This document shows positions 38,224-64,000 of a DNA stretch of 64,000 bases, piece by piece. Source of the DNA: Azoarcus sp. DN11. GTDB taxonomy: Bacteria > Pseudomonadota > Gammaproteobacteria > Burkholderiales > Rhodocyclaceae. Numbering within the stretch: position 1 is the stretch's first letter; each line of letters opens with the position of its first letter. The position numbers were made by a program, and so were the translations under genes. Where the stretch lies: assembly GCF_003628555.1 (NCBI RefSeq), contig NZ_CP021731.1:186001-250000 (forward strand). The letters run 5' to 3'. Under the pieces are notes generated by a model. That model made no database searches and had not been told where the DNA came from. It was given only the letters and a program-made list of their open reading frames with translations.

Positions 38224-39639
38224 ATGGACAGCGTCCGGAAACCCTTCAACCTGCGCAAATGGTTCTCCATCGTCAGCCTGGTGGTGACGGGGGGGGCGGC
38301 AATTGTCTCGGGCGCGATCCTGTCCAGCTTTTTCGTGAACGAGGCGATCAAGCGCGACGCGATGCTGACGACGCAGTTCATCCAGTCGATCGCCGAGATC
38401 GAGTCGCGCCACGCCCGCCTGGGCCCGAACCACACCAGCCTCGCCGCCATTCTCGATGATCGCCTGACGGCGCGGGAGCTCGGCGTTCCGGAGGAAAACC
38501 TCGAGCGTGCACGCGCGGAATTCTTCGATCATCTCCGCCAGATGCCCGAAGCCCTGCTCGCGACCGTGTTCGCGCCTGACGCCTTCGTGATCTGGTCGGC
38601 CAATCCCAAGCTGACCGGGCAGAGGCTAAGTGACAACGACGAGCTGCAGGAAGTCCTCGAGCACCGCCAGACGGTGGCCGCGGGCCATCTCAAGGAGTCC
38701 GAGGGCAAGAAGGCCGAGCAGAAGTTCGTGCGCGAGCCGAAGGACATGTACATCGAGAACTACGTGCCCCTGCTCAACACCGACGGGAGCGTGGCCTCCG
38801 TGGTCGAGATCTACAAGGAGCCGCGGGACCTCATCAGTTCGCTCAAGCGCGGCTATCTGCTGATCTGGCTGGCCGCCCTGCTGTCGGGCGGCGCGATCTA
38901 CGGATGCCTGCACTGGATCATCGACCGGGCCGCGCGCGAACTCGACGCCCAGCAGCGCGAGATCGTCGAGAACCAGACGCTGGTCGCGCTCGGCGAGATG
39001 TCGTCGGCGATCGCGCACGGCCTGCGCAACCCGCTCGCCTCGATCCGCTCCAGCGCCGAAGTCGCGCTCGAACTGGGCGATTCCGGGACCACGAAGAACC
39101 TCAACGACATCATCACCCAGGTCGATCGCGTGTCAAAGTGGGTACGGGAATTGCTACAGTTTTCGAGGCCGATCACCGACCAGAATGAGGCCGTGAACGT
39201 CGTGACTGCGCTGGACAACGCGCTGAGCACCTACGATGTGCAGATACAGCGGGCCGGCATCGAAATCGACTGGGCGCCGCAAGCGGCACCCGCGGTGGCG
39301 GTGCAAGCCAACGGCTCGCTGCTGGAACAGGCGCTCAACAGCGTGTTCTCCAACGCGATCGAGGCGATGCCGCGCGGCGGGCGCCTCGGCGTGGCCGTCG
39401 AGCAGCCCGCGCGCGACCGCGTCACGGTCAGGGTGGCCGACACCGGCTGCGGGATGTCCGAGGCGCAGCTGAAGACGCTCTTCAAGCCGTTCCACACGAC
39501 AAAACGTGGCGGCCTGGGGGTTGGATTGGTGCTGGTAAGCCGGATAATGGAACGCTTCGGTGGTGCGGTTGAACTGGACAGCAAGGAACAGGCGGGAACC
39601 ACCGTCCGTCTGACCTTCAAGGTAGCGAATCAGGAGTAG
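38224..39639 (+). CDS. membrane-bound NtrB-like sensor histidine kinase
   Basis: Predicted 471 residues from ATG 38224; the frame upstream to 38149 is not used. Membrane segment 1 is at about 15-37 (WFSIVSLVVTGGAAIVSGAILSSFF), followed by an extracytoplasmic sensor (about 40-208) containing IENYVPLLNTDGSVASVVEIYKEP, a segment often seen in Cache/PAS-like sensors, then membrane segment 2 at about 212-232. The HisKA box has His265 in MSSAIAHGLRNPLASIRSS (HG instead of the usual HE). The ATPase domain shows NAIEAMP, DTGCGM and GGLGVGLVLVSRIMERFG. It pairs with the regulator 4 bases downstream. In Pseudomonas putida GB-1, a sigma-54 kinase/regulator set (MnxS/MnxR) is needed for Mn oxidation, an interesting parallel. 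Confidence 0.88.
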   Translation: MDSVRKPFNLRKWFSIVSLVVTGGAAIVSGAILSSFFVNEAIKRDAMLTTQFIQSIAEIESRHARLGPNHTSLAAILDDRLTARELGVPEENLERARAEFFDHLRQMPEALLATVFAPDAFVIWSANPKLTGQRLSDNDELQEVLEHRQTVAAGHLKESEGKKAEQKFVREPKDMYIENYVPLLNTDGSVASVVEIYKEPRDLISSLKRGYLLIWLAALLSGGAIYGCLHWIIDRAARELDAQQREIVENQTLVALGEMSSAIAHGLRNPLASIRSSAEVALELGDSGTTKNLNDIITQVDRVSKWVRELLQFSRPITDQNEAVNVVTALDNALSTYDVQIQRAGIEIDWAPQAAPAVAVQANGSLLEQALNSVFSNAIEAMPRGGRLGVAVEQPARDRVTVRVADTGCGMSEAQLKTLFKPFHTTKRGGLGVGLVLVSRIMERFGGAVELDSKEQAGTTVRLTFKVANQE

Positions 39640-39643
39640 GAAG

Positions 39644-41056
<1,413 letters not shown>

Positions 41057-42483: not shown

Positions 42484-42930
42484 TCACTGCCAGCTGTTCA
42501 CGTCGGCGTTTTCGCCGTCGCCGCCCGGCTGGCCATCCTTGCCCAGCGAGGACAGGTCGTATTCGCCGTGCTCGCCGGGTGCCGCGTAGATGTAATTGCG
42601 GCCCCACGGGTCGGCCGGAATGTTCTTCTGCAGGTAGGGGCCGGCCCACCGCGGCTCGTTGGCGGGGCGCGTCACCAGCGCCGCCAGGCCCTGTTCGGTC
42701 GTCGGGTAGTGGCCGGTGTCGAGGCGGTACAGGTCCAGCGCCTTGGCGAAACCCTCGACCTGCGCACGTGCGGCCTTCACTTCCGATTTGCCGAGCTGGC
42801 TGAAATATTTCGGCGCCACCAGGCCGGCGAGCAGGCCCAGCACCACCAGCACGACCAGCAGTTCCAGCAGGGTGAAGCCGCGCGAAGGGCCGCGGGCGGC
42901 GCCGCGGCGAAGCATTCGACAGTCATCCAT
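42484..42930 (-). CDS. gspG: type II secretion major pseudopilin GspG
   Basis: Predicted 148 residues from ATG 42930 (MDDCRMLRRGAARG); an internal ATG at 42915 is an alternative. The prepilin cleavage motif is RGFTLLELLVVLVVLGLLAGLVAPKYF with Glu at +5. The C-terminal part has PADPWGRNYIYAAPGEHGEYDLSSLGKDGQPGG, the conserved Ca-binding tail of GspG. It is the main subunit of the pseudopilus that pushes exoproteins through the secretin. Transcribed leftward with gspF, divergent from the lytic transglycosylase, behind a sigma-54-like site at 43005-43019. Confidence 0.93.
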   Translation of the reverse strand: MDDCRMLRRGAARGPSRGFTLLELLVVLVVLGLLAGLVAPKYFSQLGKSEVKAARAQVEGFAKALDLYRLDTGHYPTTEQGLAALVTRPANEPRWAGPYLQKNIPADPWGRNYIYAAPGEHGEYDLSSLGKDGQPGGDGENADVNSWQ

Positions 42931-43004: not shown

Positions 43005-43019
43005 GCAGGAAACATGCCG
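43005..43019 (-). promoter_or_regulatory. weak sigma-54-like promoter facing gspG
   Basis: On the minus strand the sequence reads CGGCATG, N4 (TTTC), CTGC. The GG-N10-GC spacing of sigma-54 promoters is kept, but several consensus bases (TGGCACG..TTGC) differ. It lies about 75 bases ahead of the gspG start, back to back with the stronger site at 43053. Confidence 0.4.
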
Positions 43020-43052: not shown

Positions 43053-43067
43053 AGGCACGCCGCTTGC
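43053..43067 (+). promoter_or_regulatory. sigma-54-type promoter of the lytic transglycosylase gene
   Basis: AGGCACG, N4 (CCGC), TTGC matches the -24/-12 consensus TGGCACG-N4-TTGC at all but the first base. Start of transcription would be near 43079, right at the 5' side of the hairpin at 43084-43099. Confidence 0.65.
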
Positions 43068-43083
43068 GTAGCACCGTCCGGAG

Positions 43084-43099
43084 CGGGGATTCGTCCCCG
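43084..43099 (+). promoter_or_regulatory. leader hairpin with TTCG loop
   Basis: CGGGGA, TTCG, TCCCCG: a perfect 6-pair stem closed by a stable TTCG tetraloop. It would lie within the first 20 bases of the transglycosylase mRNA if transcription starts from the sigma-54 site, where it may protect the 5' end. Confidence 0.5.
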
Positions 43100-43127: not shown

Positions 43128-43760
43128 ATGAAACCGCCGATCCCGCTTCTCGCCGCCGTCTGGTTCGCACTGCCGCTGGCCGCGCAGGCCGATGTCTATC
43201 TCAAGGTCGAACCGGACGGGACGGTCACGCTCACCGACGAACCGCGTCGCGGTTTCGAACGCGTCGTCACGGCGCCCGCCCCCAGGAGTGGGGGATCGGC
43301 CCCCATAGGCGGGACCGGCCTCGTCCACGGCGAGCCGTCGGGCGAGATCGGTGCGCTGCCCTTCGCTCCGCAGGTCGCTGCGGCCGCGGCCGAGCACGAT
43401 CTGCCGGAGGCGCTCATCCATGCGGTGATCCGCGTCGAATCCAACTACGACCCGCGGGCGGTGTCGCCCAAGGGGGCGGTCGGCCTGATGCAGCTGATGC
43501 CCCGCACGGCGCGTGCGATGGGCGTCGTCGACGCACGCAATCCGGCCGAAAACATCCGTGGCGGCGCGCGTTACCTCAAGCGCCTGCTGGAGATGTTCGG
43601 CAACGACGTCGGGCGCGCCGTGGCCGCGTACAACGCCGGACCGGGCGCGGTCGTGCGCAGCGGCGGCATGCCGCCGTTCGCCGAGACGCGGCGTTACGTG
43701 CCGCGCGTGATCGAGCATTTCGAGCGCCTGGGTGGCCGCCGCGCCGGGAGGCTGTCGTGA
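43128..43760 (+). CDS. exported lytic transglycosylase (SLT family)
   Basis: Predicted 210 residues. Signal peptide about 1-21 (LLAAVWFALPLAAQADV), then a short DUF4124-like segment (YLKVEPDGTVTLTDEP), then an SLT domain: LPEALIHAVIRVESNYDPRAVSPKGAVGLMQLMPRTA with catalytic Glu in VESNYD, GGARYLKRLL, and AVAAYNAGPGAV. It cuts peptidoglycan glycan strands. Small SLTs often clear space for secretion machines, and this one is divergent from gspGF behind its own sigma-54-type promoter, so a role in building the T2SS channel is plausible. Confidence 0.88.
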   Translation: MKPPIPLLAAVWFALPLAAQADVYLKVEPDGTVTLTDEPRRGFERVVTAPAPRSGGSAPIGGTGLVHGEPSGEIGALPFAPQVAAAAAEHDLPEALIHAVIRVESNYDPRAVSPKGAVGLMQLMPRTARAMGVVDARNPAENIRGGARYLKRLLEMFGNDVGRAVAAYNAGPGAVVRSGGMPPFAETRRYVPRVIEHFERLGGRRAGRLS

Positions 43761-43825
43761 ACGACCGGGGGAATCTCCCGTTGTTGGGGGAGTACCCCCA
43801 CTCTTTGTGGCTGTGGGAGAATGCC

Positions 43826-43839
43826 CCCCGAAAGCGGGG
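43826..43839. promoter_or_regulatory. candidate enhancer dyad CCCCGAAAGCGGGG (copy 1)
   Basis: This 14-base sequence recurs exactly, on the other strand, at 57446-57459, and a degenerate form (CCGAAAGTGGG) is at 45632-45642. All three lie 65-97 bases ahead of a sigma-54-like -24/-12 element, the usual place for binding of an NtrC-type activator. Function is inferred. Confidence 0.45.
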
Positions 43840-43935
43840 GAGATGAGGAGGAGGTGGCGCTCGACCCCCGACACTGGCTGCGCATCGGGCCGGCGCCATG
43901 CGCCAGATCAAGGAACGTAGCCGGTGAGTGCAGTA

Positions 43936-43950
43936 TGGTGCGGCGTTTGT
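43936..43950 (+). promoter_or_regulatory. weak sigma-54-like promoter before the DUF2946-like gene
   Basis: TGGTGCG, N4 (GCGT), TTGT keeps the GG at -24 but has GT in place of GC at -12, so it is well below consensus. It is listed because it lies 97 bases after the CCCCGAAAGCGGGG dyad, close to the 94 bases seen at the multicopper oxidase promoter. Confidence 0.25.
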
Positions 43951-44075
43951 TCAAGGTCTCCGGGGAAGGGTCCCCGGGGAAATGCCGATGCGGAACAGGG
44001 GAAAATGAGCACGATGGGTGAGGTCGCCGCCCGGCCGCAGCGGTTCGGAGCGCACGCCACGGCGAGGCAGCCGTG

Positions 44076-44564: not shown

Positions 44565-45530
44565 ATGTTTTGCCTTCGCCCTGTCGCGGCGAGCGCGCTC
44601 GCGCTCGCGCTTGCCGTACCGTCAGCCGCCTTCGCGTCCTGCGGCTCCGCCTTTTGCTCGGTCAATACCAGCTCGGCCTTCATGAACGCCGGCCTCGCGG
44701 GTGACACCCGCCTGGGCCTGCGCTACGAGTTCATCGACCAGCGCCACCCCATGCACGGCGACAACGACGTGTCGGTGGGCGAGCTCCCGCGCCATCACGA
44801 CGAAGTGCGCACGCTCAACCGCAACACGCTGTTCACGCTGGAGCGCGATCTCGCACCGGACTGGACGATCGGCGCGACGCTGCCGCTGGTTGACCGCAGC
44901 CACAAGCACATCCACAACCACCATGAAGAAGACGGCGACGTGCACCACGTCCCCGAGACCTGGAATTTCCGCGAGCTCGGCGACCTGCGCATCGAGGCGC
45001 GCCACGAACTCCTTACCAGCCGTGAGCAGGGGGTTGGCGTGAGCTTCGGGGTCAAGCTGCCCACCGGCCGCACCAACCTGAAGAACCGCGACGGCGACCT
45101 GGCCGAGCGCAGCCTGCAGCCGGGCAGCGGCACCACCGACCTGCTGCTGGGGGCGCACTGGCGCCGGGAACTGGCGGGCGGCTCGACGGCGTTCGCGAGC
45201 GTCAGCGCGGATCTGGCGACCGCAGAGCATGACGGCTACCGCCCCGGCCACCGCATGCACCTCGATGTCGGCTGGCTCAAGCCGGTCAGCGACCGCCTGA
45301 GCTTCCCGCTGCAGCTCAACGTGTCGTACAAGGCGCGTGACCGCGGCGCCGAGGCCGAGCCGGAGGATTCGGGCGCGACGACGGTGGCGCTGAGTCCGGG
45401 AGTCAGCTGGCAGATGTCGCCGCACTGGCAGCTCTACGGCTACTACCAGCGTCCCATCTATCAGCACGTGAACGGCGTGCAGCTCACGTCGCGCTGGAGC
45501 GCCGTGCTCGGAACGACCTACGCGTTCTGA
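44565..45530 (+). CDS. His-rich outer-membrane beta-barrel protein
   Basis: Predicted 321 residues. Signal peptide about 1-24 ends SAAFAS. The mature chain alternates polar/hydrophobic strands (LGLRYEFIDQRH, TLFTLERDLAPDWTIGATLPLV, VGVSFGVKLPTGRTNLKNRDGD) and ends in TYAF with terminal Phe, as outer-membrane barrels do. A loop rich in His and acids (SHKHIHNHHEEDGDVHHV at about 105-124) could bind metal. Two cysteine pairs sit at the start (SCGSAFCSV). It may be a metal-linked channel; no named family is certain. It directly precedes the multicopper oxidase promoter region. Confidence 0.7.
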   Translation: MFCLRPVAASALALALAVPSAAFASCGSAFCSVNTSSAFMNAGLAGDTRLGLRYEFIDQRHPMHGDNDVSVGELPRHHDEVRTLNRNTLFTLERDLAPDWTIGATLPLVDRSHKHIHNHHEEDGDVHHVPETWNFRELGDLRIEARHELLTSREQGVGVSFGVKLPTGRTNLKNRDGDLAERSLQPGSGTTDLLLGAHWRRELAGGSTAFASVSADLATAEHDGYRPGHRMHLDVGWLKPVSDRLSFPLQLNVSYKARDRGAEAEPEDSGATTVALSPGVSWQMSPHWQLYGYYQRPIYQHVNGVQLTSRWSAVLGTTYAF

Positions 45531-45642: not shown

Positions 45643-45735
45643 TGCCCCACCCGCAATGCGGGGAAAAGTTGGGGAATCTTTCCGCGCTGACCTTCTGCAA
45701 TAACGCAACGCATTGAAAAATAGCCAGATTTATCC

Positions 45736-45750
45736 TGGCACGGGCGTTGC
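45736..45750 (+). promoter_or_regulatory. sigma-54 promoter of the multicopper oxidase operon
   Basis: TGGCACG, N4 (GGCG), TTGC is an exact match to the core -24/-12 consensus TGGCACG-N4-TTGC, and the base before it is C as in the extended consensus. Transcription should start near 45762 and requires an activator ATPase such as the NtrC-type protein at 39644. The next gene is the multicopper oxidase at 45870. Confidence 0.8.
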
Positions 45751-45869: not shown

Positions 45870-46592
45870 ATGAAGGGCACGCATCCGAAGGAGTTGGCAC
45901 CTGCCGCAGCCGGTGGCGCATGCCGCCGGCTGCGGCTGTCCGGCCTGCTCGCGCTGGCCGGCGCCACGCTGTTTGCGGCCGGTGAGGCGAAGGCGGCGAT
46001 CACGTGCACGCGCACGCTGGTGGCCGACGTGGTGGCGCTCGACCAGCCGCTGATGTTCAACCGGCTCGGCGCGCAGAACATCAACGGCATGATGTTTGCG
46101 CTCGAGGAGGACGTGGTCGATGCGGCCGGCCGGACGCTCGCGGCCGGCGGTGCGAAGTCGCCTGGCAACGTCAGGCTGCGCGACGACAAGCGCCCGCGTC
46201 CGCTGGTGCTGCGCATCGCGGCGGGCGAATGCCTGACCGTTCGGCTGACCAACCTGCTCGCCCCGACCGCCAACGCGCGCACCGCGTCGCCGCCCGAGAT
46301 GCACATCGACGAGCAGGTCGCCGACCGCCACGTCGGCTTCTTCGCGCAGGGCATGCAGGCGGTCAACAGCATCGCCGACCTCGGCGACAACGTCGGCCGG
46401 AACATGAGCTCGCTGGTGGCGCCGGGCAACAGCAGGACCTATACGCTCTACGGCGAGCGCGAAGGGACTTTCGCGATCACGAGCTACGGCGCGACCTTCG
46501 GCGGCGAGGGCACTGCCGGCAACACCACCAGCGGCCTGTTCGGCCAGCTCACCGTGTTGCCCCCGGGGGGGGCGCCTATCGCAACGTCGTGA
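45870..46592 (+). CDS. giant multicopper oxidase, N-terminal part (frame broken at a G8 tract)
   Basis: 240 residues in this frame. ATG 45870 follows GGGGGAA. Residues 1-43 are a signal peptide (LSGLLALAGATLFAAGEAKAA). Then come cupredoxin-like segments ITCTRTLVADVVALDQPLMFNRLG, RPLVLRIAAGECLTVRLTNLL and MHIDEQVADRHVGFFAQGMQAVNSI. The frame runs into TGA at 46590-46592 just after CCCCC-G8 at 46560-46572. A tract of nine or six G would join it to the next frame as one protein of about 1,930 residues. The gene is the first of the operon that follows the sigma-54 promoter at 45736. Confidence 0.85.
   Translation: MKGTHPKELAPAAAGGACRRLRLSGLLALAGATLFAAGEAKAAITCTRTLVADVVALDQPLMFNRLGAQNINGMMFALEEDVVDAAGRTLAAGGAKSPGNVRLRDDKRPRPLVLRIAAGECLTVRLTNLLAPTANARTASPPEMHIDEQVADRHVGFFAQGMQAVNSIADLGDNVGRNMSSLVAPGNSRTYTLYGEREGTFAITSYGATFGGEGTAGNTTSGLFGQLTVLPPGGAPIATS
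46560..46572 (+). other. C5-G8 homopolymer where the multicopper oxidase frame breaks
   Basis: CCCCC then GGGGGGGG. Upstream the frame reads LTVLPPGG; downstream, YRNVVSEEEL is in another frame. One more G, or two fewer, would restore a single reading frame. A sequencing or assembly slip at this homopolymer, a real pseudogene, or slippage-based phase switching are all possible. The end of the first frame and a GTG start of the second overlap as GTGA at 46589-46592, so coupled translation of two polypeptides is a further option. Confidence 0.85.
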
Positions 46593-51661: not shown

Positions 51662-51716
51662 GCAGCACGCAGTCCGGGGACCCGGAAACGGGGCCCCAAA
51701 ACCGGGGGAAAGCACC

Positions 51717-53684: not shown

Positions 53685-53696
53685 GGAGGGGGGACG

Positions 53697-54392: not shown

Positions 54393-54396
54393 GCAC

Positions 54397-55029
54397 ATGA
54401 TCGCTGCACGCCGCACCGTCTTCCTCGCCGCCTTCGCGGCGCTCGCACAGGTCCTCACCCTCGCCGCCGCCGCGCAAGCGGCCGCGCAGGCCGTGGCGCC
54501 CCCCGCCACCGGCGGCACGCACGACGCGCGTGCCTACTTCACCGACACCGAGCTCGTCGACCAGCACGGCCGCAAGGTCCGGTTCTACAGCGACGTGCTG
54601 AAGGACCGCGTCGTGATGCTCAACGTGGTCTACGCGAACTGCAAGGACGCCTGCCCGCTCATCACGCGCAAGCTCACGGAAGTGCGCGCCACGCTGGGCG
54701 AGGAGGCCGCGCGCAAGGTGCATTTCATCTCGATCAGCAGCGACCCGCTGCACGACACGCCGGCCTCGCTGAAGGCCTTCGCGGCGAAGAACCACGCCGA
54801 TAGCCCGAACTGGATCTTCCTCACCGGCGACAAGGCGAAGGTCGACTTCGTGCTGAGCCGCCTCGGCCAGCTCGGCAACAGCGTCGAGGAGCATTCGACG
54901 CTGCTGATCGCCGGCGACGTGCCGAACAAGCGCTGGAGCAAGATCCGCCCCGACGCACCGCCGCCGGCGATCGCCGAGCGCCTGAGGCTGCTCACCGAAC
55001 CGGTGGAGAAGGTGAGCCTGGGACGGTAA
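54397..55029 (+). CDS. SCO1/SenC-family copper chaperone (second copy)
   Basis: Predicted 210 residues. GGGAGTAAGCAC precedes ATG 54397, 4 bases after the first SCO gene's stop. Signal peptide about 1-28. The SCO motif is VVYANCKDACPLITR (CXXXCP), with the His ligand in VEEHSTLLIAG. Its sequence differs clearly from the first copy (no His-rich region; different loops), so the pair is not a recent duplication. Two SCO proteins may act in series, one carrying copper and one reducing the target's cysteines, but this is inference. Confidence 0.92.
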   Translation: MIAARRTVFLAAFAALAQVLTLAAAAQAAAQAVAPPATGGTHDARAYFTDTELVDQHGRKVRFYSDVLKDRVVMLNVVYANCKDACPLITRKLTEVRATLGEEAARKVHFISISSDPLHDTPASLKAFAAKNHADSPNWIFLTGDKAKVDFVLSRLGQLGNSVEEHSTLLIAGDVPNKRWSKIRPDAPPPAIAERLRLLTEPVEKVSLGR

Positions 55030-55034
55030 CGATC

Positions 55035-56621
55035 ATGGCAAGCCGCCGCCTTACAGGGTGGTCGGGTCTGATGGCCGCGCTACTCTGCGTCGCGGGGCCT
55101 GTGGCCGCAATCGAGCTGACTGCTTCCGAACAGGCCGGCAAGCAGATCTTCGTCGAAGGCCGCAGCGCCTCGGGCAGCACCATTGCGGCCCGCGTCGGGG
55201 GCGCGGACACGGCGATACCGGGAACGGTGGTGCCGTGTGCCAACTGCCACGGCGCCGATGGCCGCGGGAGGCGCGAGGGGGGCGTGCGCCCGCCCGACAT
55301 CACCTGGCGGCGGCTTGCCCTTCCTTATGGCCAGCGCATGGAAAACGGGCGCGAACGGCCCGCCTACGACGCGGCGAGCTTCGCGCGCGCGATCACCACC
55401 GGGGTCGATTCCGCCGGCAACCGGCTCGACCCCGCGATGCCGCGCTTCACGATGTCGGCGCGCGACGCCGAGGACCTCACGGCCTACCTGAAGCGCCTCG
55501 AGGACGACGGCGACCCGGGCCTCGCGCAGGACGCCGTGCGCGTCGGCACGCTGCAGCCCGCGACGGGGCTGCTGGCCGAGCTGGGCACGACCGTCACGGC
55601 CATCCTGCGCGGCACTTTCGACGCCGTGAACGCCGGCGGCGGGGTGCACGGCCGGCGCATCGAGCTGGTCGTCGCCGATCCCGGCAGCGATGCCGCGGGC
55701 GCGGAGGCCGCGCTGCGCCGCCTCGTCGACGAGGAAAAGGTGTTCGCCCTCGTCGCGCCGCTGGTGCCGGCGCTCGACGGGCGCCTGGGCGCGCTCGCCG
55801 ACGCCGCGCACATCCCCGTGGTCGGCCCGCTCGCGCAGCTGTCGGCGAGCGGCGGCCGCTTCGTGTTCGATCCGCTGCCCGGCCTCGGCGAGCAGCTCGG
55901 TGCGCTCGGCGAATACGCCGCCGCCACGCTCAAGCTCACGAATCCGCCGGTCGCGATCGTGCATCCGGACGAACCCCGCAGCGCCGCCATCGCCAGCGCG
56001 CTCGCCGGGCGCCTCGCGCGCCACGGCTGGTCGCAGGTGCGCGCCTACGCCTACGTGCCGGGCGCGTTCAACGCCTCCTGGGTGGGCACGGCGGTGGCCG
56101 GCCAGGGCGCGAAGGCGGTCTTCTTCATCGGCCGCGACGCCGACTTCGGCGCGCTCGCCGCGCAGGAGCCGTTGCAGAAGGCGCCGCCGTGGCTGTTCGC
56201 GGCGGCGAACCAGGTCGGCCCGGCCGTGCTGCGGCTGCCCGCGCCGCAAGCCGAGCGCGTGTTCATCGCCTACCCGACCTTGCCGCAGGACTGGAGCCCG
56301 CAAGGCGCGGGCGCGCTGCGTGCGGTGCGCGCCCGCAGCGGCGCGGGCGACCGCCACCCCGCCTTCCAGGTCGGCGCCTACGTCGCGGCGTTGGTGATGG
56401 TGGAAGGCTTCAAGCGCGCCGGGCGCGACGTGAGCCGCGACAAGTTCGTTGCCGCGCTGGAGGGCATGCGTGGCTTCCAGACCGGCGTGGCGCCCGCGAT
56501 CGGCTTCGGCCCCGGGCAGCGCGTCGGCGCGCCGGGCGCCCACATCGTCGGCGTGGATGCGCAGAAGCACATTTTCCGCCCGACCGGCCGCTATGTGCGC
56601 CTTGACACAGTACAAGAATGA
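55035..56621 (+). CDS. cytochrome c fused to a periplasmic ABC-type binding protein domain
   Basis: Predicted 528 residues. Signal peptide about 1-26. Residues 30-152 are a class I cytochrome c with CANCHG at 68-73 and a likely axial Met in MPRFTMSARD. From about 165 the chain becomes a Leu/Ile/Val-binding-protein (type I PBP) fold: VRVGTLQPATGLLAELGTTV, NAGGGVHGRRIELVVADPGSDAAGAEAALRRLVDEEKVFALVAPLV, KAVFFIGRDADFGALAAQ, and VEGFKRAGRDVSRDKFVAALEG. Such a fusion in one protein is unusual. It may sense a ligand while passing electrons. It follows the SCO genes in the multicopper oxidase operon, where Leptothrix mofC also encodes a haem protein. Confidence 0.88.
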   Translation: MASRRLTGWSGLMAALLCVAGPVAAIELTASEQAGKQIFVEGRSASGSTIAARVGGADTAIPGTVVPCANCHGADGRGRREGGVRPPDITWRRLALPYGQRMENGRERPAYDAASFARAITTGVDSAGNRLDPAMPRFTMSARDAEDLTAYLKRLEDDGDPGLAQDAVRVGTLQPATGLLAELGTTVTAILRGTFDAVNAGGGVHGRRIELVVADPGSDAAGAEAALRRLVDEEKVFALVAPLVPALDGRLGALADAAHIPVVGPLAQLSASGGRFVFDPLPGLGEQLGALGEYAAATLKLTNPPVAIVHPDEPRSAAIASALAGRLARHGWSQVRAYAYVPGAFNASWVGTAVAGQGAKAVFFIGRDADFGALAAQEPLQKAPPWLFAAANQVGPAVLRLPAPQAERVFIAYPTLPQDWSPQGAGALRAVRARSGAGDRHPAFQVGAYVAALVMVEGFKRAGRDVSRDKFVAALEGMRGFQTGVAPAIGFGPGQRVGAPGAHIVGVDAQKHIFRPTGRYVRLDTVQE

Positions 56622-56664
56622 GGTGATGAACTAATGTAGTAAATACCGATGGGAGGAGACGGGC

Positions 56665-57387
56665 TTGAGGACAGACCGGGCATCCGGCGGGCACGCCGTC
56701 ACGACGCAGGGAAGGAGAGGAGGGGCCGCGCGCCGCCGTGCGTCGTGCGGTCTGCGGCATGTGACGGCGGCCCTGTGCCTGGTCTGCACCCTCGCGTTGC
56801 CGGCGCCGGCCTCCGCGCAGGAGGTCGGCGTCGCGGCACGCGTCAATGGCGCCGAAATCACCGTCTTCCGCCTCGAACGCCATTTCGAGGACTACCTCCG
56901 GCTCAAGGCGCGCAATGTCGCCGCCATCCGCAGCCCCGACGTGTTCAAGCGCCTCAAGCGCGAAGCGCTCGACCAGCTCATCGACAAGGAGCTGCTGTGG
57001 CAGGAGTCGCAGCGCCGCGGCGTGAAGGTCGATGACGCGGCGGTCGAGGAGATGCGCAGCGGCATCGAATCGGGATTCGCGACGCGCGAGGCCTACGAGC
57101 GCCGCGTCCGCGACGCCGGCTTCGACGAAGCCTCCTACGCCGAATACCTGCGCCGCGAGCTCGCGGCGAGCCGCACCCTGCAGGCGCTCGCGGGCACGCC
57201 CCGGATCAGCGACGAGGACGTGCGGCGCACGCTGGAGCAGGAGCCGGCGCCCGCGGGCATGCCCGAGGCCGAGGCGCAGCGCCAGGTGCGCGCGTACCTG
57301 GCCGCGAGCCGCCGCGCCGAAGCCGGCCGCGAGGCGCTGCAACGATTGCGCGAGTCCGCACGGGTGGAGGTGCTGCAGCCGTTCTGA
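56665..57387 (+). CDS. SurA N-terminal-domain-like periplasmic chaperone without PPIase domain
   Basis: Predicted 240 residues. TTG 56665 is chosen because GGGAGGAG precedes it by about 6 bases; GTG 56761 is a possible alternative that still keeps the signal sequence (AALCLVCTLALPAPASAQ). Mature residues show VGVAARVNGAEITVFRLERHFEDYLRLKARN and LKREALDQLIDKELLWQESQRRGVKVDDAAVEEM, the SurA_N/PpiD helical fold. The parvulin PPIase domain is absent: the protein ends with a helix after residue 180. It is the last gene of the operon. Leptothrix mofB is recalled as a peptidyl-prolyl isomerase-like protein, so a foldase near this oxidase type is expected. Confidence 0.82.
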   Translation: MRTDRASGGHAVTTQGRRGGAARRRASCGLRHVTAALCLVCTLALPAPASAQEVGVAARVNGAEITVFRLERHFEDYLRLKARNVAAIRSPDVFKRLKREALDQLIDKELLWQESQRRGVKVDDAAVEEMRSGIESGFATREAYERRVRDAGFDEASYAEYLRRELAASRTLQALAGTPRISDEDVRRTLEQEPAPAGMPEAEAQRQVRAYLAASRRAEAGREALQRLRESARVEVLQPF

Positions 57388-57445
57388 CGGGCGTCCGGCC
57401 GCATGCCCCGATTTGGGGACTGGCGGCCGGTAGCGGGTGGTTTTT

Positions 57446-57459
57446 CCCCGCTTTCGGGG
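57446..57459. promoter_or_regulatory. candidate enhancer dyad CCCCGCTTTCGGGG (copy 2, reverse orientation)
   Basis: The exact reverse complement of the 14-base sequence at 43826-43839. It lies about 65 bases ahead of the sigma-54 site at 57524. It could also act as a weak hairpin ending the upstream operon, since the run TTTTT lies on its 5' side for leftward reading, so its role is not certain. Confidence 0.45.
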
Positions 57460-57523: not shown

Positions 57524-57538
57524 TGGCACGCGGCGTGC
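57524..57538 (+). promoter_or_regulatory. sigma-54-type promoter of the response regulator/gspE operon
   Basis: TGGCACG, N4 (CGGC), GTGC matches the consensus TGGCACG-N4-TTGC at all but one base. Transcription would start near 57550, 53 bases ahead of the response regulator ATG at 57603. It is in a 215-base gap after the multicopper oxidase operon. Confidence 0.65.
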
Positions 57539-58249: not shown

Positions 58250-59974
58250 ATGGATATGCATGTCATCCCTGAAATGGTCGTACCGGACAGTGCCGAGGGC
58301 GTTGTCCAGAGGCTCGATGTCGCGCTGCTGCGTTCGGCGCGCGACCGCGCCGCGGCCCACGGCCGCCGCATGATCGACGAACTGGAGGAGCTCGCCGGCC
58401 TCGATCCGCGCGAATTCGTGCGCCGCCTTGCCGCCACGCTGCATTACCCGGTGCTGTGCGGCGAGGAGCTTTTCGCCGGCGCGCCGGACTTCTCCAAGGT
58501 GTCGCTCGCCGAGGCCATCAAGCACGAATTCGTGCTCGTGAAGCGTTCGCCGGACGCGGGCGGCGGCCTCATCGGCGTGTTCTCCGACCCCTTCGACGAC
58601 GCGCGCCTCGCGTGGATCGACGAGCGCCTCGGCGGTGCCGAGCTGCATCTGGCGCATCCGGCCGACCTCGCGGCCTGCCTCGCGCGCCACGAGGAGGACT
58701 TCCATGCGATCGACTCGCTCGCCGCGGCGCAGGAGGAATGCGCTGCCGCCGAGGACGTCGAGACGCTCTCGCTCGCCCGCATCAGCGAGGACTCCAGCGT
58801 CGTCGTGAAGCTGGTCAACTCGACCCTCTACGACGCGCTCAAGGCCAAGGCCAGCGACATCCACCTCAGCGCCACCGGCAGCGGCATGGTCATCAAGTAC
58901 CGCGTCGACGGCGTGCTCGACACCGCCAGCCGGGTGCAGGGCGCCGACGTCGCCGAGCAGATGATCTCGCGCGTGAAGGTGATGGCGGAGCTCGACATCG
59001 CCGAGAAGCGCGTGCCGCAGGACGGCCGCTTCAAGGTGTCGATCAAGGGCCGCCAGATCGATTTCCGCGTGTCGATCATCCCCAGCATCTTCGGCGAGGA
59101 CGCCGTGCTGCGCGTGCTCGACAAGCAGGACCTCGCCGACCAGGTGCATGGCGTGCGCCTCGACTCGCTCGGCTTCGAGCCCGACGTGATGAAAACCCTG
59201 CGCCGCCTCGCGAGCGAGCCCTACGGCATGGTGCTCGTCACTGGCCCCACCGGCAGCGGCAAGACCACCACGCTGTACGCGATGCTCACCGAGATCAACC
59301 GCGGCGTCGACAAGATCATCACGATCGAGGACCCGGTCGAATACCAGCTCCCCGGCGTGCTGCAGATCCCGGTCAACGAGAAGAAGGGCCTCACCTTCGC
59401 GCGCGGCCTGCGCTCCATCCTGCGCCACGACCCGGACAAGATCATGGTCGGCGAGATCCGCGACGCCGACACCGCGCAGATCGCCGTGCAGTCGGCGCTC
59501 ACCGGCCACCTCGTGTTCACGACCATCCACGCCAACAACGTGTTCGACGTGATCGGGCGCTTCACGCAGATGGAGGTCGACCCGTACAGCTTCGTTTCGG
59601 CGCTGAACGGCGTGCTCGCGCAGCGCCTGATCCGGCTCGCGTGCCCGCACTGTGCCGTCGAAACGCAGCCGCGGCACGACGAACTCCGTGCCGCCGGCCT
59701 CGATCCGGCCGAGGTCAGGGGCTGGCGCTTCGTGCATAGCCCCGGCTGCGGCCGCTGCCGCGGCACCGGCTACCGTGGCCGCACCGCGATCGCCGAAGTG
59801 CTGCTGCTCGACGACGAACTGCGCCAGACCATCATCGACCACCGGCCCATCGCCGAACTGAAGGAGCTCGCGAAGAAGCGCGGCCTGCGCCTGCTGCGCG
59901 AGTCGGCGCTCGACCTGGTGCGTACCGGCGAGACCACGCTCGAGGAGATCAACCGTGTCACTTTTGTCGCGTGA
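58250..59974 (+). CDS. gspE: type II secretion ATPase GspE
   Basis: Predicted 574 residues. GGAAGGAG precedes ATG 58250. The N-terminal domain (about 1-190) links to the membrane partner. The ATPase core has Walker A GPTGSGKTTTLYA, the Asp box ITIEDPVEYQLP, Walker B IMVGEIRDADTAQIA, and His in TGHLVFTTIHANN. The tetracysteine zinc site is CPHC...CGRC near residue 466-500. It drives pseudopilus assembly with GspF from the cytoplasm. The next gene starts inside its last 20 bases. Confidence 0.95.
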   Translation: MDMHVIPEMVVPDSAEGVVQRLDVALLRSARDRAAAHGRRMIDELEELAGLDPREFVRRLAATLHYPVLCGEELFAGAPDFSKVSLAEAIKHEFVLVKRSPDAGGGLIGVFSDPFDDARLAWIDERLGGAELHLAHPADLAACLARHEEDFHAIDSLAAAQEECAAAEDVETLSLARISEDSSVVVKLVNSTLYDALKAKASDIHLSATGSGMVIKYRVDGVLDTASRVQGADVAEQMISRVKVMAELDIAEKRVPQDGRFKVSIKGRQIDFRVSIIPSIFGEDAVLRVLDKQDLADQVHGVRLDSLGFEPDVMKTLRRLASEPYGMVLVTGPTGSGKTTTLYAMLTEINRGVDKIITIEDPVEYQLPGVLQIPVNEKKGLTFARGLRSILRHDPDKIMVGEIRDADTAQIAVQSALTGHLVFTTIHANNVFDVIGRFTQMEVDPYSFVSALNGVLAQRLIRLACPHCAVETQPRHDELRAAGLDPAEVRGWRFVHSPGCGRCRGTGYRGRTAIAEVLLLDDELRQTIIDHRPIAELKELAKKRGLRLLRESALDLVRTGETTLEEINRVTFVA

Positions 59975-60752
59975 GCGCCTCATCGCGGTACTCGCCCCGG
60001 CGCGGGTGACGCTGCTGCGCGCGGGGCCCGGGCGCCCCACGCCGGGCGGCGCCTGCGACTGCGAGGGCGGCTGGGACGGTGCCGTCGATGCGCTGCAGGG
60101 CCTGCTGCGCGAGGCCGGCGTGCGCCGGAGCGACGTCACGGTCGTGCTCTCCTGCCACTTCGCGCACTTCCGCCTCGTGCCGTGGAGCGACGCGATCAGT
60201 TCGCCCGCCGAACTCGAAGCCTTCGCGCGCATCGGCTTCGAGGACGTCTACGGCGCCGTCGCGGCCGGCTGGGCGCTGCGCATCTCGCCCGAGGCGGCCG
60301 GTCGGCCGCGCGTCGCCGTGGCGATCGAAAAGGCCCTGCTGGAGCGCCTGCACACCATCGTCGAGGGCGCGGGGCTGCGCCTCGCCTCGGTGCAGCCCTA
60401 CCTGATGGCCGCCTACAACCGCCTGCAGCCGAGCCTCGCGCGCGACGACTTCGTGTTCGCCGTCGCCGAGCCGGGCCGCTGCAGCATGCTGCTCGCGCGT
60501 GCCGGCCAGTGGCTCAGCGTGCGCTCCAGCGCGGCCGGCGACAACGAACACGCGGTCGCGGATCTCCTCGAACGCGAATGCGAACTCAACGGCATCGGCG
60601 ACCCGCAGTCGGGGCCGGTGCCGCCGGTATTCATCCATGCCCCGGGGCGCGCCGCGAGCGCGTGGCCGCCGGTGGAAGGCGTCACTCCGCGCGCCCTGAC
60701 GCTGGGCAGCGGGGACGATCCGTGGCAGGACATGGCGCGGGCGGTGGCGTGA
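59955..60752 (+). CDS. PilM/GspL-like cytoplasmic assembly protein
   Basis: Predicted 265 residues from GTG 59955, overlapping gspE by 20 bases. The region GVRRSDVTVVLSCHFAHFRLVPWSDAISS and FARIGFEDVYG looks like the actin-like PilM/MshI/GspL fold. No membrane segment is seen. It should link GspE to the PilN/PilO-like proteins encoded next. Assignment rests on position in the gene order and weak sequence pattern. Confidence 0.7.
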   Translation: MSLLSRERLIAVLAPARVTLLRAGPGRPTPGGACDCEGGWDGAVDALQGLLREAGVRRSDVTVVLSCHFAHFRLVPWSDAISSPAELEAFARIGFEDVYGAVAAGWALRISPEAAGRPRVAVAIEKALLERLHTIVEGAGLRLASVQPYLMAAYNRLQPSLARDDFVFAVAEPGRCSMLLARAGQWLSVRSSAAGDNEHAVADLLERECELNGIGDPQSGPVPPVFIHAPGRAASAWPPVEGVTPRALTLGSGDDPWQDMARAVA

Positions 60753-61297
60753 TGAAACGGCTACAGCTCGACTTCCGTCGTTCGCCCCCCGCCGGTGCCG
60801 GGGGCTGGGCGCTGCTCGCCGTGGGCGCCGTCCTCGCCGGCACGGTGACGTGGGCCGGCGTGCACATCCGGGGCGAGATCGCGGCGCAGGACGCGACCGC
60901 GCGCCAGATCCTCGCCGGCCTGCCCGGGCCCCTGCGCGACAGCAGGCCGGCCGCGGCGGGCGGCAGCGAGCGCGACGGCGCGCTGGCGGGCATGCATCGC
61001 GTGCAGGCGAGCATCGACAACCGCCCCTGGCAGGCGCTGTTCGCGACGCTCGAGGGCCTCGCCAGCGACGACGTCGCGCTGCTGGCGCTGACACCGGACG
61101 CGCGCAAGCACCAGCTCCGCATCACTGCCGAGGCGCGCGACCTCGGCGCGATGCTCGATTACCACCGCAAGCTGGAGGGCACGCCCGCGCTGCGCGACGT
61201 GGCGCTGGTCAGCCACGAGTTCGCCGAGCAGGTGCCGGGCCGGCCGGTGCGCTTCAGCCTCGTCGCAAGCTGGGTGACCGACCATGCCAATCCATAA
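60752..61297 (+). CDS. PilN-like inner-membrane assembly protein
   Basis: Predicted 181 residues, ATG 60752 sharing one base with the previous stop. One membrane segment (about 18-38, AGGWALLAVGAVLAGTVTWAG) follows a short basic cytoplasmic start (MKRLQLDFRRSP), the PilN plan. The rest is a periplasmic ferredoxin-like domain (RPWQALFATLEGLASDDVALLALTPDARKHQLRITAEA). It should form a heterodimer with the PilO-like protein downstream. Family call is by architecture and position. Confidence 0.72.
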   Translation: MKRLQLDFRRSPPAGAGGWALLAVGAVLAGTVTWAGVHIRGEIAAQDATARQILAGLPGPLRDSRPAAAGGSERDGALAGMHRVQASIDNRPWQALFATLEGLASDDVALLALTPDARKHQLRITAEARDLGAMLDYHRKLEGTPALRDVALVSHEFAEQVPGRPVRFSLVASWVTDHANP

Positions 61298-61832
61298 GCT
61301 CACGCTCCACGAAGCCGTGCGCCGCCTGGGCCTGCCCGGCCTCGGCGGCGCCCTCCTGCTGGCCGCCGCCGCGGCCGGCACCCTGTCGGTCGTGCTGCCC
61401 GGCCTCGGGGCGCGCGAGCGCGCCGGGCAGCAGGTGCTGCGCGCGCAGGCCCAGGCCGCCGCCGCCCGACGCGGCGAAGTGCCCGACGCGCTGCCGCCCG
61501 CACGCCAGCTCGACGACTTCTACGCCGGCCTGCCGCCCCAACTCGCCGCGACGAAGGCGATCGACGGCCTGTATACGGCTGCCGACGCGGAAAAAATCTC
61601 CCTCGCGCGCGGCGAATACTCGCTCGCCGTCGAACAGGGCTCCGACATGGCGCGCTACCAGATCCTGCTGCCGGTGCGCGGCACCTACGCGCAACTGCGC
61701 CGCTTCCTCGACGCCGCGATCGCGAAGGTGCCGGGCCTCAGCGTGGAGGACCTGGACATCCAGCGCAAGGAGGTCTCCGAGACCGAGCTCGAAGGCCGCA
61801 TCCGCATGACCCTTTACCTGTCGAGGCGGTGA
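61284..61832 (+). CDS. PilO/GspM-like inner-membrane assembly protein
   Basis: Predicted 182 residues from ATG 61284, overlapping the PilN-like gene by 14 bases. A short cytoplasmic start, one membrane segment (about 22-40, LGGALLLAAAAAGTLSVVLPGL), a helical stalk and a C-terminal domain with YQILLPVRGTYAQLRRFLDAAIAKVPGLSVEDLDIQRKE, which resembles the PilO ferredoxin-like domain. It should pair with the PilN-like protein and connect to the secretin via the next gene's product. Confidence 0.75.
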   Translation: MPIHKLTLHEAVRRLGLPGLGGALLLAAAAAGTLSVVLPGLGARERAGQQVLRAQAQAAAARRGEVPDALPPARQLDDFYAGLPPQLAATKAIDGLYTAADAEKISLARGEYSLAVEQGSDMARYQILLPVRGTYAQLRRFLDAAIAKVPGLSVEDLDIQRKEVSETELEGRIRMTLYLSRR

Positions 61833-62407
61833 TGGCGAACCGGCGTGGGCTCTTCTGGCTGGCATTCCTCGGCGCGGCCGCGGCGCTCGCGGTCATTCCG
61901 GAATTCTTCGACAAGGCGCCCGACGAGGCCGCGCAACCGGTGAGCCGTCCGCGCGCAACGGCGAGCGCACCGCCCGCCGCGCAGGCCGGACAGCTCGCCG
62001 GGCTGCGTTCCGCGGCACCGCCCGCCGCGGGGCAGGACGACGCGGCAAGCGCTGCCGCCCCGAGCGCCCCGGAGGCGGGGCCGGCCGCGCCCCGCCCCGT
62101 GCCTGAACTCTTCGCCGCGCACAGCTGGTACGTCCCGCCCCCGCCGCCCCCGCCGCCGCCCCCCGCCCCGCCGCCCCCGCCCCCGGTGCCCGTCGCGCCG
62201 CCCGTCCCCTACGAATATCTCGGCAAGCTCGCCGACGGCAATTCCGTGCGCGTGTTCCTCGTGCGCGGCGACCGCCCCTACACGGTTTCCGAAGGCGATG
62301 TACTGGACGGCAGCTACAGGGTGCAACGCATCACGGACACCACGATGACGCTCGTCTATCTTCCTCTCAACATGCCCCAAACCTTGCCCGTGGGAAGCAA
62401 ACCATGA
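61832..62407 (+). CDS. PilP/GspC-like protein with poly-proline linker
   Basis: Predicted 191 residues from ATG 61832 (GTG 61829 is possible, overlapping the previous stop). One membrane segment (about 8-24), an Ala/Pro linker, then an extreme proline tract near residue 105 (ten prolines in a row, then PAPPPPPPPVPV), and a C-terminal homology-region domain: YEYLGKLADGNSVRVFLVRGDRPYTVSEGDVLDGSYRVQRITDTTMTLVYL. The last domain is the GspC/PilP HR region that contacts the secretin's N0 domain. Long proline runs stall ribosomes without EF-P. Overlaps the secretin start. Confidence 0.78.
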   Translation: MANRRGLFWLAFLGAAAALAVIPEFFDKAPDEAAQPVSRPRATASAPPAAQAGQLAGLRSAAPPAAGQDDAASAAAPSAPEAGPAAPRPVPELFAAHSWYVPPPPPPPPPPAPPPPPPVPVAPPVPYEYLGKLADGNSVRVFLVRGDRPYTVSEGDVLDGSYRVQRITDTTMTLVYLPLNMPQTLPVGSKP

Positions 62408-64000
62408 TGACGGATACCGTGCTCCGCCGAGTTGTCCCCCATGTCGCGATCGTGGTGCTGGCGTCATCGCTCGCCGGCTGTGCCAACGACGCCCTGCAGC
62501 GCGACGGCATGCGCCTGATCGACGAGGGACATTACGAGGAAGGACTGGCCAAGCTCGACGAGGCCGTGCGCGAACAGCCGCGCGACCCCTCCGCCAATGT
62601 GGCGCAGACGACGCAGCGCCAGCGCGTGATCACCGCGCTGCTGGCCAACGCCGAGCGCGCCCGTCGCATGCGCGACAACAACGCTGCGGCGCGCGACTAC
62701 GAGCGGGTGCTCGGCATCGAGCCGGCCAACGAGCGTGCGGCCGAGGCGCTGCATCAGCTCGAGCAGCTGCGCAACGCCGGCGAGAGCGTGCGTCAGGCCC
62801 AGGTCGCGCTGCGCCGCGGCGACCTCGACGGTGCCGACCGCCTGGTGCGCCAGGTGCTCGTGCTCGACCCGCGCCACGAGGGCGCGCTGGCGCTCAGGCG
62901 CGAGATCGAGGACATCCGCTCGCGCACCGTCCAGACCTATCCGCAGCTGCGCACGAAGATGGCTGCGCCCGTGACGCTGGAGTTCCGCGACGGCAACCTC
63001 AGGCAGATCTTCGAAGTGCTGTCGCGCACTGCCGGCATCAACTTCCTGTTCGACAAGGACGTGAAGCCCGACCTCAGGGCGACGCTGTTCGTGCGCCAGG
63101 TCCCGGTCGAGCAGGCGGTCGAGCTGCTGCTGCTGCAGAACCAGCTGCAGCAGAAAGTCATCAGCGACAACACGGTGATGATCTACCCCGACACGCCGCA
63201 GAAGCAGCGCGACTACCAGGACCTCACGATCCGCACCTTCCACCTCGCCAACACCGACGCCAAGACGGCGATGAACATGCTCAAGACCCTGCTCAAGAGC
63301 AAGGACGTGTTCATCGACGAGCGCCTCAACACGCTGACGATGCGCGACTCGGCCGACGCCGTGCGCCTCGCCGAGAAGCTGCTCTCCGCGCAGGGGCTGC
63401 CCGAGCCCGAGGTCGTGCTCGAGGTCCAGGTCATGGAAGTGTCGCGCCAGCGCATCCTCGACCTCGGCCTGCAGTGGCCCAGCACCTTCGGCCTGCTGCG
63501 TCCCGACCTCGGCGGCCCGCCGGGCGTGCTGACCGACTACAACCACGTCAACGGCAGCCGCATCACCGTCGGCCCGTCCCCCGAACTGCGCATCAATGCC
63601 AACGACAGCGACGTGAACACGCTCGCGAACCCGGTGATCCGCGTCAGCAACAAGGAAAAGGCGCGCATCCATATCGGCCAGCGCGTGCCGGTCGTCAGCG
63701 CGACCTCCACCCCCTCGACGCAGGGCCCGGTGATCACCGAGAGCATCCAGTACCTGGAGGTCGGCCTGAAGCTCGAGGTCGAGCCCACCGTGCATCTGGA
63801 CGACGAGGTGATGATCAAGATCGCGCTCGAAGTCAGCAAGGCCACCCAGCAGTCGCCGACCAAGAACGGCACCATCCCCGTGCAGGTCGATACGCGCAAT
63901 GCGGTGACCGTGCTGCGCCTGAAGGACGGCGAGACGCAGGTGCTCGCCGGCCTGGTGCGCAACGATCACGACGTCGCCGGCAACCGCATCCCGGGTCTCG
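62404..64000 (+). CDS. type II secretion secretin GspD-like (partial, cut by window end)
   Basis: 532 codons are in the window and the frame is still open at 64000. ATG 62404 overlaps the previous stop (ATGA). Residues 1-26 are a lipoprotein signal ending LAGC, so it may be a lipidated secretin. About 30-170 are TPR-like helices (GHYEEGLAKLDEAVREQP), then N-domains (VTLEFRDGNLRQIFEVLSRTAGINFLFD, FHLANTDAKTAMNMLKTLL), and the start of the secretin core (PEVVLEVQVMEVSRQRILDLGLQW; LANPVIRVSNKEKARIHIGQRVPVVSA). The TPR-containing N-terminus points to the MshL/PilQ-like atypical group rather than classic GspD. Confidence 0.88.
   Translation, partial: MMTDTVLRRVVPHVAIVVLASSLAGCANDALQRDGMRLIDEGHYEEGLAKLDEAVREQPRDPSANVAQTTQRQRVITALLANAERARRMRDNNAAARDYERVLGIEPANERAAEALHQLEQLRNAGESVRQAQVALRRGDLDGADRLVRQVLVLDPRHEGALALRREIEDIRSRTVQTYPQLRTKMAAPVTLEFRDGNLRQIFEVLSRTAGINFLFDKDVKPDLRATLFVRQVPVEQAVELLLLQNQLQQKVISDNTVMIYPDTPQKQRDYQDLTIRTFHLANTDAKTAMNMLKTLLKSKDVFIDERLNTLTMRDSADAVRLAEKLLSAQGLPEPEVVLEVQVMEVSRQRILDLGLQWPSTFGLLRPDLGGPPGVLTDYNHVNGSRITVGPSPELRINANDSDVNTLANPVIRVSNKEKARIHIGQRVPVVSATSTPSTQGPVITESIQYLEVGLKLEVEPTVHLDDEVMIKIALEVSKATQQSPTKNGTIPVQVDTRNAVTVLRLKDGETQVLAGLVRNDHDVAGNRIPGL

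Follow-up and report, generated by a model that had tools for sequence, protein, structure and literature searches.

The 64,000-nucleotide stretch analysed here (the window) comprises bases 186001-250000 of the genome of Azoarcus sp. DN11, a single contig of 4.96 Mb, and from position 38224 onwards it carries the genes of a manganese-oxidising multicopper oxidase (MnxG), a kinase and regulator pair of the MnxS/MnxR type and a type II secretion system (T2SS), several of them behind sites resembling sigma-54 promoters. Positions are those of the window, and genes lie on the + strand unless stated otherwise. The cluster begins with an MnxS-like sensor histidine kinase (HisKA and HATPase_c by Pfam; 38224-39639) and an NtrC-type sigma-54 activator (39644-41056), taken as the probable MnxR ortholog from its orthologs in relatives, in which the receiver (PF00072), Sigma54_activat (PF00158) and HTH_8 (PF02954) domains are those of an NtrC-type enhancer-binding protein. 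The Pfam domains confirm the NtrB/NtrC-like pair that an original prediction, made from the letters of this DNA, had placed next door to the oxidase, and the two genes also adjoin wherever the loci of relatives span both. On the - strand follow gspF, encoding a T2SS inner-membrane protein (PF00482; 41151-42341), and gspG for the major pseudopilin (PF08334 and N_methyl; 42484-42927), and then, on the + strand, a lytic transglycosylase gene (SLT, PF01464; 43128-43760).

The oxidase operon (45870-57387) consists of mnxG itself (45870-51661), a YVTN/cytochrome-d1-type beta-propeller protein (Pfam; 51717-53684), two SCO1/SenC copper chaperones (PF02630; 53697-54392 and 54373-55029), a cytochrome c fused to a periplasmic binding domain (Pfam; 55035-56621) and a SurA-like peptidyl-prolyl isomerase/chaperone (Pfam; 56665-57387). 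Behind it lies a second operon that starts with a stand-alone receiver-domain protein (response regulator, PF00072; 57603-58148) and the ATPase gene gspE (PF00437; 58247-59974), and continues with inner-membrane assembly proteins of PilM/GspL-like, PilN-like and T2SSM_b (PilO-like) type (59955-61832), a proline-rich membrane protein that is GspC-like from position only (61829-62407) and the secretin gene gspD (PF00263; 62404-64000, continuing to 64722). Three pseudopilin-like genes come after gspD and reach 66222 in window numbering; two have N_methyl and the third was named by eye. Secretin, GspE, GspF, GspG and further pseudopilins of a T2SS are thus present, and among the inner-membrane parts the PilN and T2SSM_b types are assigned by Pfam (the PilN-like protein slightly below its cut-off), while the PilM/GspL-like protein (59955-60752), which has no Pfam match, is named from position, as is the GspC-like one.

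For comparison with relatives we used 80 MnxG loci, the best 80 of 523 relatives in a scan of genome contigs, four of them from Azoarcus/Aromatoleum, two from one metagenome-assembled genome and the remainder mostly from Pseudomonas. Gene order is kept among them, with gspF-gspG-transglycosylase upstream of mnxG in many loci and response regulator-gspE-pilM-pilN downstream in most. Ahead of mnxG the window also holds a gene for an outer-membrane-type protein of the Phenol_MetA_deg family (44565-45530), matched at E<=1e-5 in one of the 80 relatives (L032), several of the loci ending short.

Two pieces of the oxidase, which lie in different reading frames (45870-46592 and about 46577-51661), match NCBIfam family NF041487 (MnxG manganese oxidase); the frame changes at a C5G8 run near 46560-46573. 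Scored separately, the pieces give 276.7 and 2861.3 bits, the curated whole-protein cut-off being 3100, and they span profile positions 1-202 and 207-1894; a protein 85% identical to the window's MnxG (P0002) scores 3155 bits. The closest MnxG proteins from named genomes, among the candidates scored (in protein searches, those sharing most words), are from Azoarcus and Aromatoleum. Because full-length mnxG copies of the genus lie in one open frame of 1,978-1,990 codons, the gene is frameshifted in the assembly, the cause being a recent mutation or else an error of sequencing. It could be argued from the two frames, and from a relative (G030) in which the oxidase and most T2SS genes are gone, that mnxG is a pseudogene in a decaying cluster and its regulon a relic. 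This seems unlikely to us, since the other cluster genes are full-length open frames with intact promoter sites and the frameshift falls in a run prone to sequencing error or slippage.

Conservation of the sigma-54 sites

Three near-consensus sigma-54 sites had been predicted at 43053, 45736 and 57524, and all three are found on the + strand in intergenic DNA ahead of the genes named: TGGCACGGGCGTTGC ahead of mnxG (45736-45750; 0 mismatches of 11), AGGCACGCCGCTTGC ahead of the transglycosylase gene (43053-43067; 1 mismatch) and TGGCACGCGGCGTGC ahead of the response-regulator/gspE operon (57524-57538; 1 mismatch). The sequence ahead of gspG, CGGCATGTTTCCTGC (43005-43019, - strand), has 3 mismatches. 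The genome also has rpoN, as an open frame of 604 codons. Counting such sites proves little. Those with up to two mismatches are rarer in the window than expected by chance (23 against 33.7 in shuffles), and genome-wide both the motif and the composite of enhancer plus site stand at control level; sites alone are therefore weak evidence that cannot identify regulon members, and genome-wide site counts were ruled out as proof. The cluster's sense-oriented intergenic DNA (2,061 bp) contains three sites with at most one mismatch, against 0.025 expected at the genomic rate (Poisson P about 3e-6, in a test chosen post hoc).

Conservation across relatives is the stronger test. A site was scored as conserved if it had the GG/GC core and at most two mismatches; the counts include the window, and upstream regions shorter than 150 bp were dropped (L041). 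On this basis the site ahead of mnxG is present in 80/80 regions (opposite strand, 1; shuffles, 2.7), that ahead of the response-regulator/gspE operon in 64/65 (opposite strand, 2; shuffles, 2.5) and that ahead of the transglycosylase gene in 46/47 (opposite strand, 1; shuffles, 1.6). The second of these counts excludes L039 and L110, in which the response-regulator gene is located elsewhere. The 11 core positions hold about 1.7 bits each, compared with an average of 0.4-0.5 in the flanks, which have diverged. All three sites thus possess the conserved GG/GC cores and fixed spacing of sigma-54 (-24/-12) promoters, and they would most simply be read as such. Were they chance matches, or sequences constrained for some other reason, with sigma-70-type promoters driving the genes, the motif's lack of genome-wide excess would be accounted for. 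This is highly improbable in view of the strand-specific conservation between diverged flanks, and also of the published need for rpoN in a Pseudomonas relative, Pseudomonas sp. MS-1, in which rpoN::Tn5 is reported to abolish Mn oxidation and complementation to restore it (PMC11409713).

The proposal that all four predicted sites would recur in related genomes holds for these three, and is doubtful for the gspG site, in which the weakness noted at the outset extends to the relatives: the GG is lacking in most loci, and a GG-type core with at most two mismatches is found in just 1/47. A relaxed element, GCAYG-N4-YTGC, recurs on the gspG strand in 41/47 loci (0.4 in shuffles); the opposite strand has it in 11/47, a count to which the transglycosylase site itself can contribute. 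The putative gspG promoter at 43005 therefore seems weak and not a clean sigma-54 site.

A candidate enhancer and its probable activator

Upstream of the sigma-54 sites, an open search for enriched dyads, carried out on promoter sets from which near-identical and short sequences had been removed (mnxG, 81 to 68; gspE operon, 66 to 44; transglycosylase, 47 to 25), yielded a G-tract palindrome in two arrangements. Of the 44 non-redundant gspE-operon promoters, 43 have CCCC-N6-GGGG, where 0.67 would be expected, and of the 68 mnxG promoters, 50 have GGGG-N6-CCCC, where 1.7 would be expected. In the interval searched, from -165 to -50 with regions shorter than 170 bp dropped, 65/66 gspE-operon and 66/79 mnxG promoters have one or other form, its start lying 64-155 bp ahead of the site. 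Counted anywhere in the region, it occurs in 67/80 mnxG, 64/65 gspE-operon and 42/47 gspG-transglycosylase regions, as against 4.1, 2.1 and 1.5 in shuffles. Most gspE-operon promoters have two spaced copies (60/66 in all, 38/44 non-redundant), which lie 41-45 bp apart in 37 of the 38 pairs, about four helical turns.

In the window, the two enhancer-like dyads ahead of the gspE operon are CCCC-N5-GGGG at 57406-57418 and CCCC-N6-GGGG at 57446-57459 (no strand is assigned to these elements). A further palindrome, GGGG-N6-CCCC at 43085-43098, lies between gspG and the transglycosylase gene, upstream of gspG; present in 42 of the 47 loci, it probably serves gspG-gspF and may also serve the transglycosylase gene. 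The window's mnxG promoter has in the palindrome's place a G-tract repeat, GGGGAAAAGTTGGGGAATC (45660-45678), which is not an exact N6 palindrome and reads GGGG-N7-GGGGAATC; a similar string precedes a secreted-protein gene at C1:1647 kb. Between enhancer and promoter, a site resembling that of integration host factor (IHF), with at most one mismatch, is found in 43/68 mnxG promoters (6.3 expected) and 28/44 gspE-operon promoters (2.9 expected; both from shuffles), the window's own mnxG promoter having one only at two mismatches. Upstream of other sigma-54-like sites of the genome with at most one mismatch the palindrome was found in 0 of 27, taken from 30 of 121 sites. A role as terminator was judged unlikely by eye, the stem having four pairs and no T run being noticed, and the element precedes several separate promoters. 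As a separate observation, palindromic G/C tracts cluster at 43740-43990, between the transglycosylase gene and a DUF2946 gene (44073); a look by eye at 43774-43990 recognised no sigma-54 site.

The palindrome is likely to be the enhancer, and so a candidate binding site, of the neighbouring NtrC-type activator. MnxR orthologs were sought in the genomes of 20 of the 80 mnxG loci and found in 20/20, with best matches 60-91% identical. Two genomes, G019 and G020, have a second copy at 65-66%, and every other listed match is at 52% or below; the name MnxR as used here denotes this clear best match across the mnxG genomes searched (20/20). G019 and G020 (L134, L135) are the Pseudomonas genomes of L110 and L039. 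The regulator adjoins a kinase-like open reading frame (ORF) in several of the relatives' loci, and in L163 two kinase-like ORFs flank a multicopper oxidase, an arrangement also described for MS-1 and DSV-1. Its helix-turn-helix (HTH) is nearly invariant among orthologs.

The palindrome might instead be read by another factor, such as a copper or stress regulator, or by several NtrC-type proteins, with sigma-54 control itself being real. Pointing this way, the operon of a 52%-identical activator paralog (C1:3148-3153 kb) follows a sigma-54 site and a similar palindrome, paralogs of that type in other genomes (L136, L137) have a related HTH, half-sites in both arrangements (C4N6G4 and G4N6C4) are odd for one dimer, and the exact palindrome is missing at the window's own mnxG promoter. 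Activators with a Fis-type HTH need half-sites about one helical turn apart, placed 60-155 bp upstream of the promoter. The palindrome matches these needs in spacing and position, which counts against another binder, as do the co-occurrence of the regulator with mnxG and the conservation of the HTH where the palindrome is conserved; we regard a different reader as quite unlikely and MnxR as the probable one. The paralogous locus (L223:3623-8507) comprises a kinase/activator pair, its activator the 52% match, and an ABC transporter, behind the sigma-54 site and palindrome.

Oxidase and exporter as one proposed regulon

Co-occurrence was assessed in 150 genomes, the own genome and relatives, from the best candidates per genome. 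A close MnxG is present in 11 of them (in G031 as fragments only), and G125 has a distant one. In all 11, regulator identity is at least 71% and gspE identity at least 79%; among the other 139, a regulator of at least 60% is found in two (G030 and G039) and a gspE of at least 75% in one (G039). In G030 neither mnxG nor gspE is matched; gspF and the transglycosylase, cytochrome and SurA-like genes are fragmentary and a gspD remnant was seen by eye. The genes for kinase, regulator, GspG and receiver are intact, and two promoters of mnx type are kept with their palindromes. This locus (L226, C1:2928000-2946000) is evidently a relic of an mnx cluster. It also holds, behind an mnx-type promoter, a 125-residue ORF with a signal-peptide-like start and no Pfam family. 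In G039 (L229, L230) the regulator, gspF and a transglycosylase gene are next to genes for a Cu-oxidase_2 protein of 875 residues and for an FKBP protein, and the response regulator, gspE and secretin are located elsewhere, with a sigma-54 site recognised by eye, and no palindrome found, ahead of the response regulator. By gene content, G039 appears to have the same regulator-exporter module with another oxidase.

These distributions bear on the view that only the oxidase operon is under sigma-54 and MnxR, the T2SS genes having ordinary promoters and serving several cargoes. The published sigma-54/IHF promoters are, as far as PMC11930936 was consulted, those of mnxG and mcoA only, other T2SS or type IV pilus ATPases at about 60% identity are widespread, and G039 keeps the regulator and T2SS genes while a different multicopper oxidase lies beside the regulator. 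Set against this, the gspE-operon enhancer is the best conserved of all (65/66, and 60/66 for two spaced copies), its sigma-54 site is kept in 64/65, and gspE at 75% or more accompanies a close MnxG in 11/11 genomes and occurs in 1/139 others. An oxidase-only regulon is therefore very unlikely.

We put at roughly 0.85 the probability that the MnxS/MnxR-MnxG manganese-oxidation module is wired, together with its secretion machine, as one sigma-54 regulon. The original prediction of a single circuit over oxidase, copper loading, electron transfer and secretion is supported by the conservation of the sites, the shared palindrome, the IHF-like sites and the co-occurrence of MnxG, regulator and gspE. 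In the mechanism we propose, a signal, which like the substrate of the oxidase would be Mn(II), leads the histidine kinase (38224) to phosphorylate MnxR (39644), which would bind the CCCC-N6-GGGG-type G-tract palindromes about 60-155 bp upstream of the site. IHF would bend the DNA between palindrome and promoter, and sigma-54 polymerase at the TGGCACG-N4-TTGC sites would form open complexes at both the mnxG and the receiver/gspE operon. The latter would supply ATPase, inner-membrane platform, secretin and pseudopilins, and the transglycosylase would open the cell wall for the secretion machine. Since both operons would share a common switch, cargo and exporter would be made together, MnxG being the putative cargo of this T2SS.

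Several points weigh against a single regulon, the case for which is built from genes, sites, conservation and co-occurrence. Sites with at most one mismatch show no genome-wide excess (121, against 124 for the reversed pattern), and the enhancer-plus-site composite is not enriched either (5 and 5 matches, against 8 and 3 in controls). One locus, L038, has no sigma-54 site ahead of its response regulator, and the gspG site is without its GG in most loci. The exact palindrome is missing upstream of mnxG in 13/79 loci, the window included, and at transglycosylase promoters it is found upstream in 0/25, lying 32-42 bp downstream instead, and an IHF-like site in 0/25. The activator loop reads GAFTDA (21/23 orthologs, and the window) or GAYTDA (2/23), not GAFTGA, which appears to be a conserved variant (the loops of L118 and L120 were read separately, not by the loop search). 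The window's mnxG is frameshifted in the assembly, G030 and G039 carry the regulator without mnxG, and most of the relatives are Pseudomonas and therefore not independent.

Of the precedents offered originally, MnxS/MnxR of Pseudomonas putida fits, and Geobacter OmpB is not the closest, because the oxidase is MnxG. In P. putida GB-1, where MnxS1, MnxS2 and MnxR are required for Mn oxidation, the oxidase is of the same NF041487 family, the six-gene order is the same (mnxG, YVTN propeller, SCO1, SCO1, cytochrome c/ABC-binding protein, SurA), and the NtrC-type regulator is likewise described as sigma-54-dependent (PMC11409713, with its Table 4). A difference is that mnxS1, mnxS2 and mnxR form a separate putative operon there, whereas the window has one kinase and the regulator near the oxidase. 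IHF and sigma-54 sites are predicted ahead of mnxG and mcoA in GB-1, in a paper whose main text, as far as consulted, makes no mention of an enhancer or upstream activating sequence (PMC11930936); T2SS genes, a palindromic enhancer and the secreted proteins with immunoglobulin-like (Ig-like) domains discussed below are not among what the consulted passages of the GB-1 accounts describe. In the Geobacter OmpB/OxpG system, likened here by description, the multicopper protein is extracellular, has SCO1 and MofC-like proteins as neighbours and is reportedly exported by an atypical T2SS (Mehta 2006, as cited in PMC5566968); OmpB differs in being described as a MofA homolog needed for insoluble Fe(III) reduction, whereas the window protein is an MnxG of about 1,900 residues. 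In the mof operon of Leptothrix discophora, similarly, the candidate Mn oxidase has a MofC-like cytochrome and a peptidyl-prolyl isomerase as neighbours; this operon differs in that MofA is another oxidase and that the passages concerned make no link to a regulator or to secretion (PMC5566968). That Mn oxidation in Pseudomonas depends on sigma-54 and MnxS/MnxR is thus published; new here are the shared candidate enhancer and the proposal that the exporter belongs to the regulon.

In P. putida GB-1, secretion of the Mn-oxidising factor reportedly requires an Xcm/Gsp-related pathway (de Vrind 2003). By description only, this resembles the present case, in that a second T2SS-like pathway is needed for secretion of the Mn-oxidising activity, and it differs in that Xcm is also reported in KT2440. 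We found no paper joining mnxG with type II secretion in a search that left subscription papers mostly outside, which is no proof of absence. The arrangement bears on why and how bacteria place a Mn(II) oxidase outside the cell, and on what switches it. A candidate enhancer with a putatively co-regulated exporter offers, both in Azoarcus relatives and in the tractable Pseudomonas, concrete promoters and a machine to study and secreted proteins that may be part of the mineral shell, and the pairing in G039 of regulator and exporter with a different copper oxidase suggests a portable module.

Candidate members outside the cluster

A genome-wide search for the palindrome with its flanking bases, at one mismatch or fewer, gives 17 occurrences (control, 4), of which four lie within the cluster. 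When the 13 outside were compared with a list of sigma-54 sites covering the genome to 3.96 Mb of 4.96, two preceded a site by about 135-150 bp, at 921 kb and 1647 kb; three further regions with palindromes outside the cluster (L156-L158) gave no site plus palindrome. The pair at 921 kb precedes a gene for a small secreted protein with Cys/His repeats such as PGCDDHGTNTCHSTV (L154:6329-6700, C1:921328). It has relatives in 5/149 other genomes, four of the five with mnxG; among their upstream regions (L213-L217), L213 has a site without the palindrome, L217 a 2-mismatch site with the palindrome, and the other three neither.

The pair at 1647 kb precedes a gene for a 780-residue Ig-like protein with a signal-peptide-like start (L155:6381-8723, C1:1647380). 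It belongs to a secreted Ig-like (Big_9) family, with a further member at L162:1163-4858, in which the N-terminal part matches no Pfam family; this part has 279 relatives among the candidates scored, including Rubrivivax sp. A210, a reported Mn oxidiser, and Methylobacter. Two tandem copies near 4832 kb (L225:5419-7776 onward, C1:4832394-4837030) carry the same two-part signature, and the copies at 1647 and 4832 kb are far from the cluster at 224-252 kb. Scoring the best 6 candidates per genome, matches over most of the length were found in 5/11 mnxG genomes and 0/139 others.

In Pseudomonas, homologs (31% over their length) lie beside mnxS/mnxR, behind site plus palindrome in five called cases. 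Site and palindrome occur together in 8 of the 15 mnxR regions retrieved from Pseudomonas and Stutzerimonas and not in the other 7; in five of the eight (L161, L162, L166, L168 and L169) an ORF of the Ig-like family was called downstream; an mcoA promoter was examined by eye in the single locus L163. The signature stands upstream of the Ig-like gene in only one of five regions from relatives (L198; not L197, which follows another tandem copy, nor L199, L200 or L208), so that membership at a distance is a lead only. We would place at a little under even odds the wider proposal that MnxR, IHF and sigma-54 use a code of paired CCCC-N6-GGGG-type palindromes to govern the oxidase, a dedicated T2SS, the wall-opening transglycosylase and further secreted Ig-like proteins. 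If it is true, the Ig-like proteins would be further cargo or a scaffold for Mn oxide deposition. Their predicted structure, all-beta beads with a pTM of 0.43 and a query-normalised TM of 0.17 or less among the 50 PDB matches listed, is uninformative. A composite match at 2285 kb was set aside as a regulon member, its genes, by eye, apparently being those of a phenol-degradation operon that has a sigma-54 promoter of its own.

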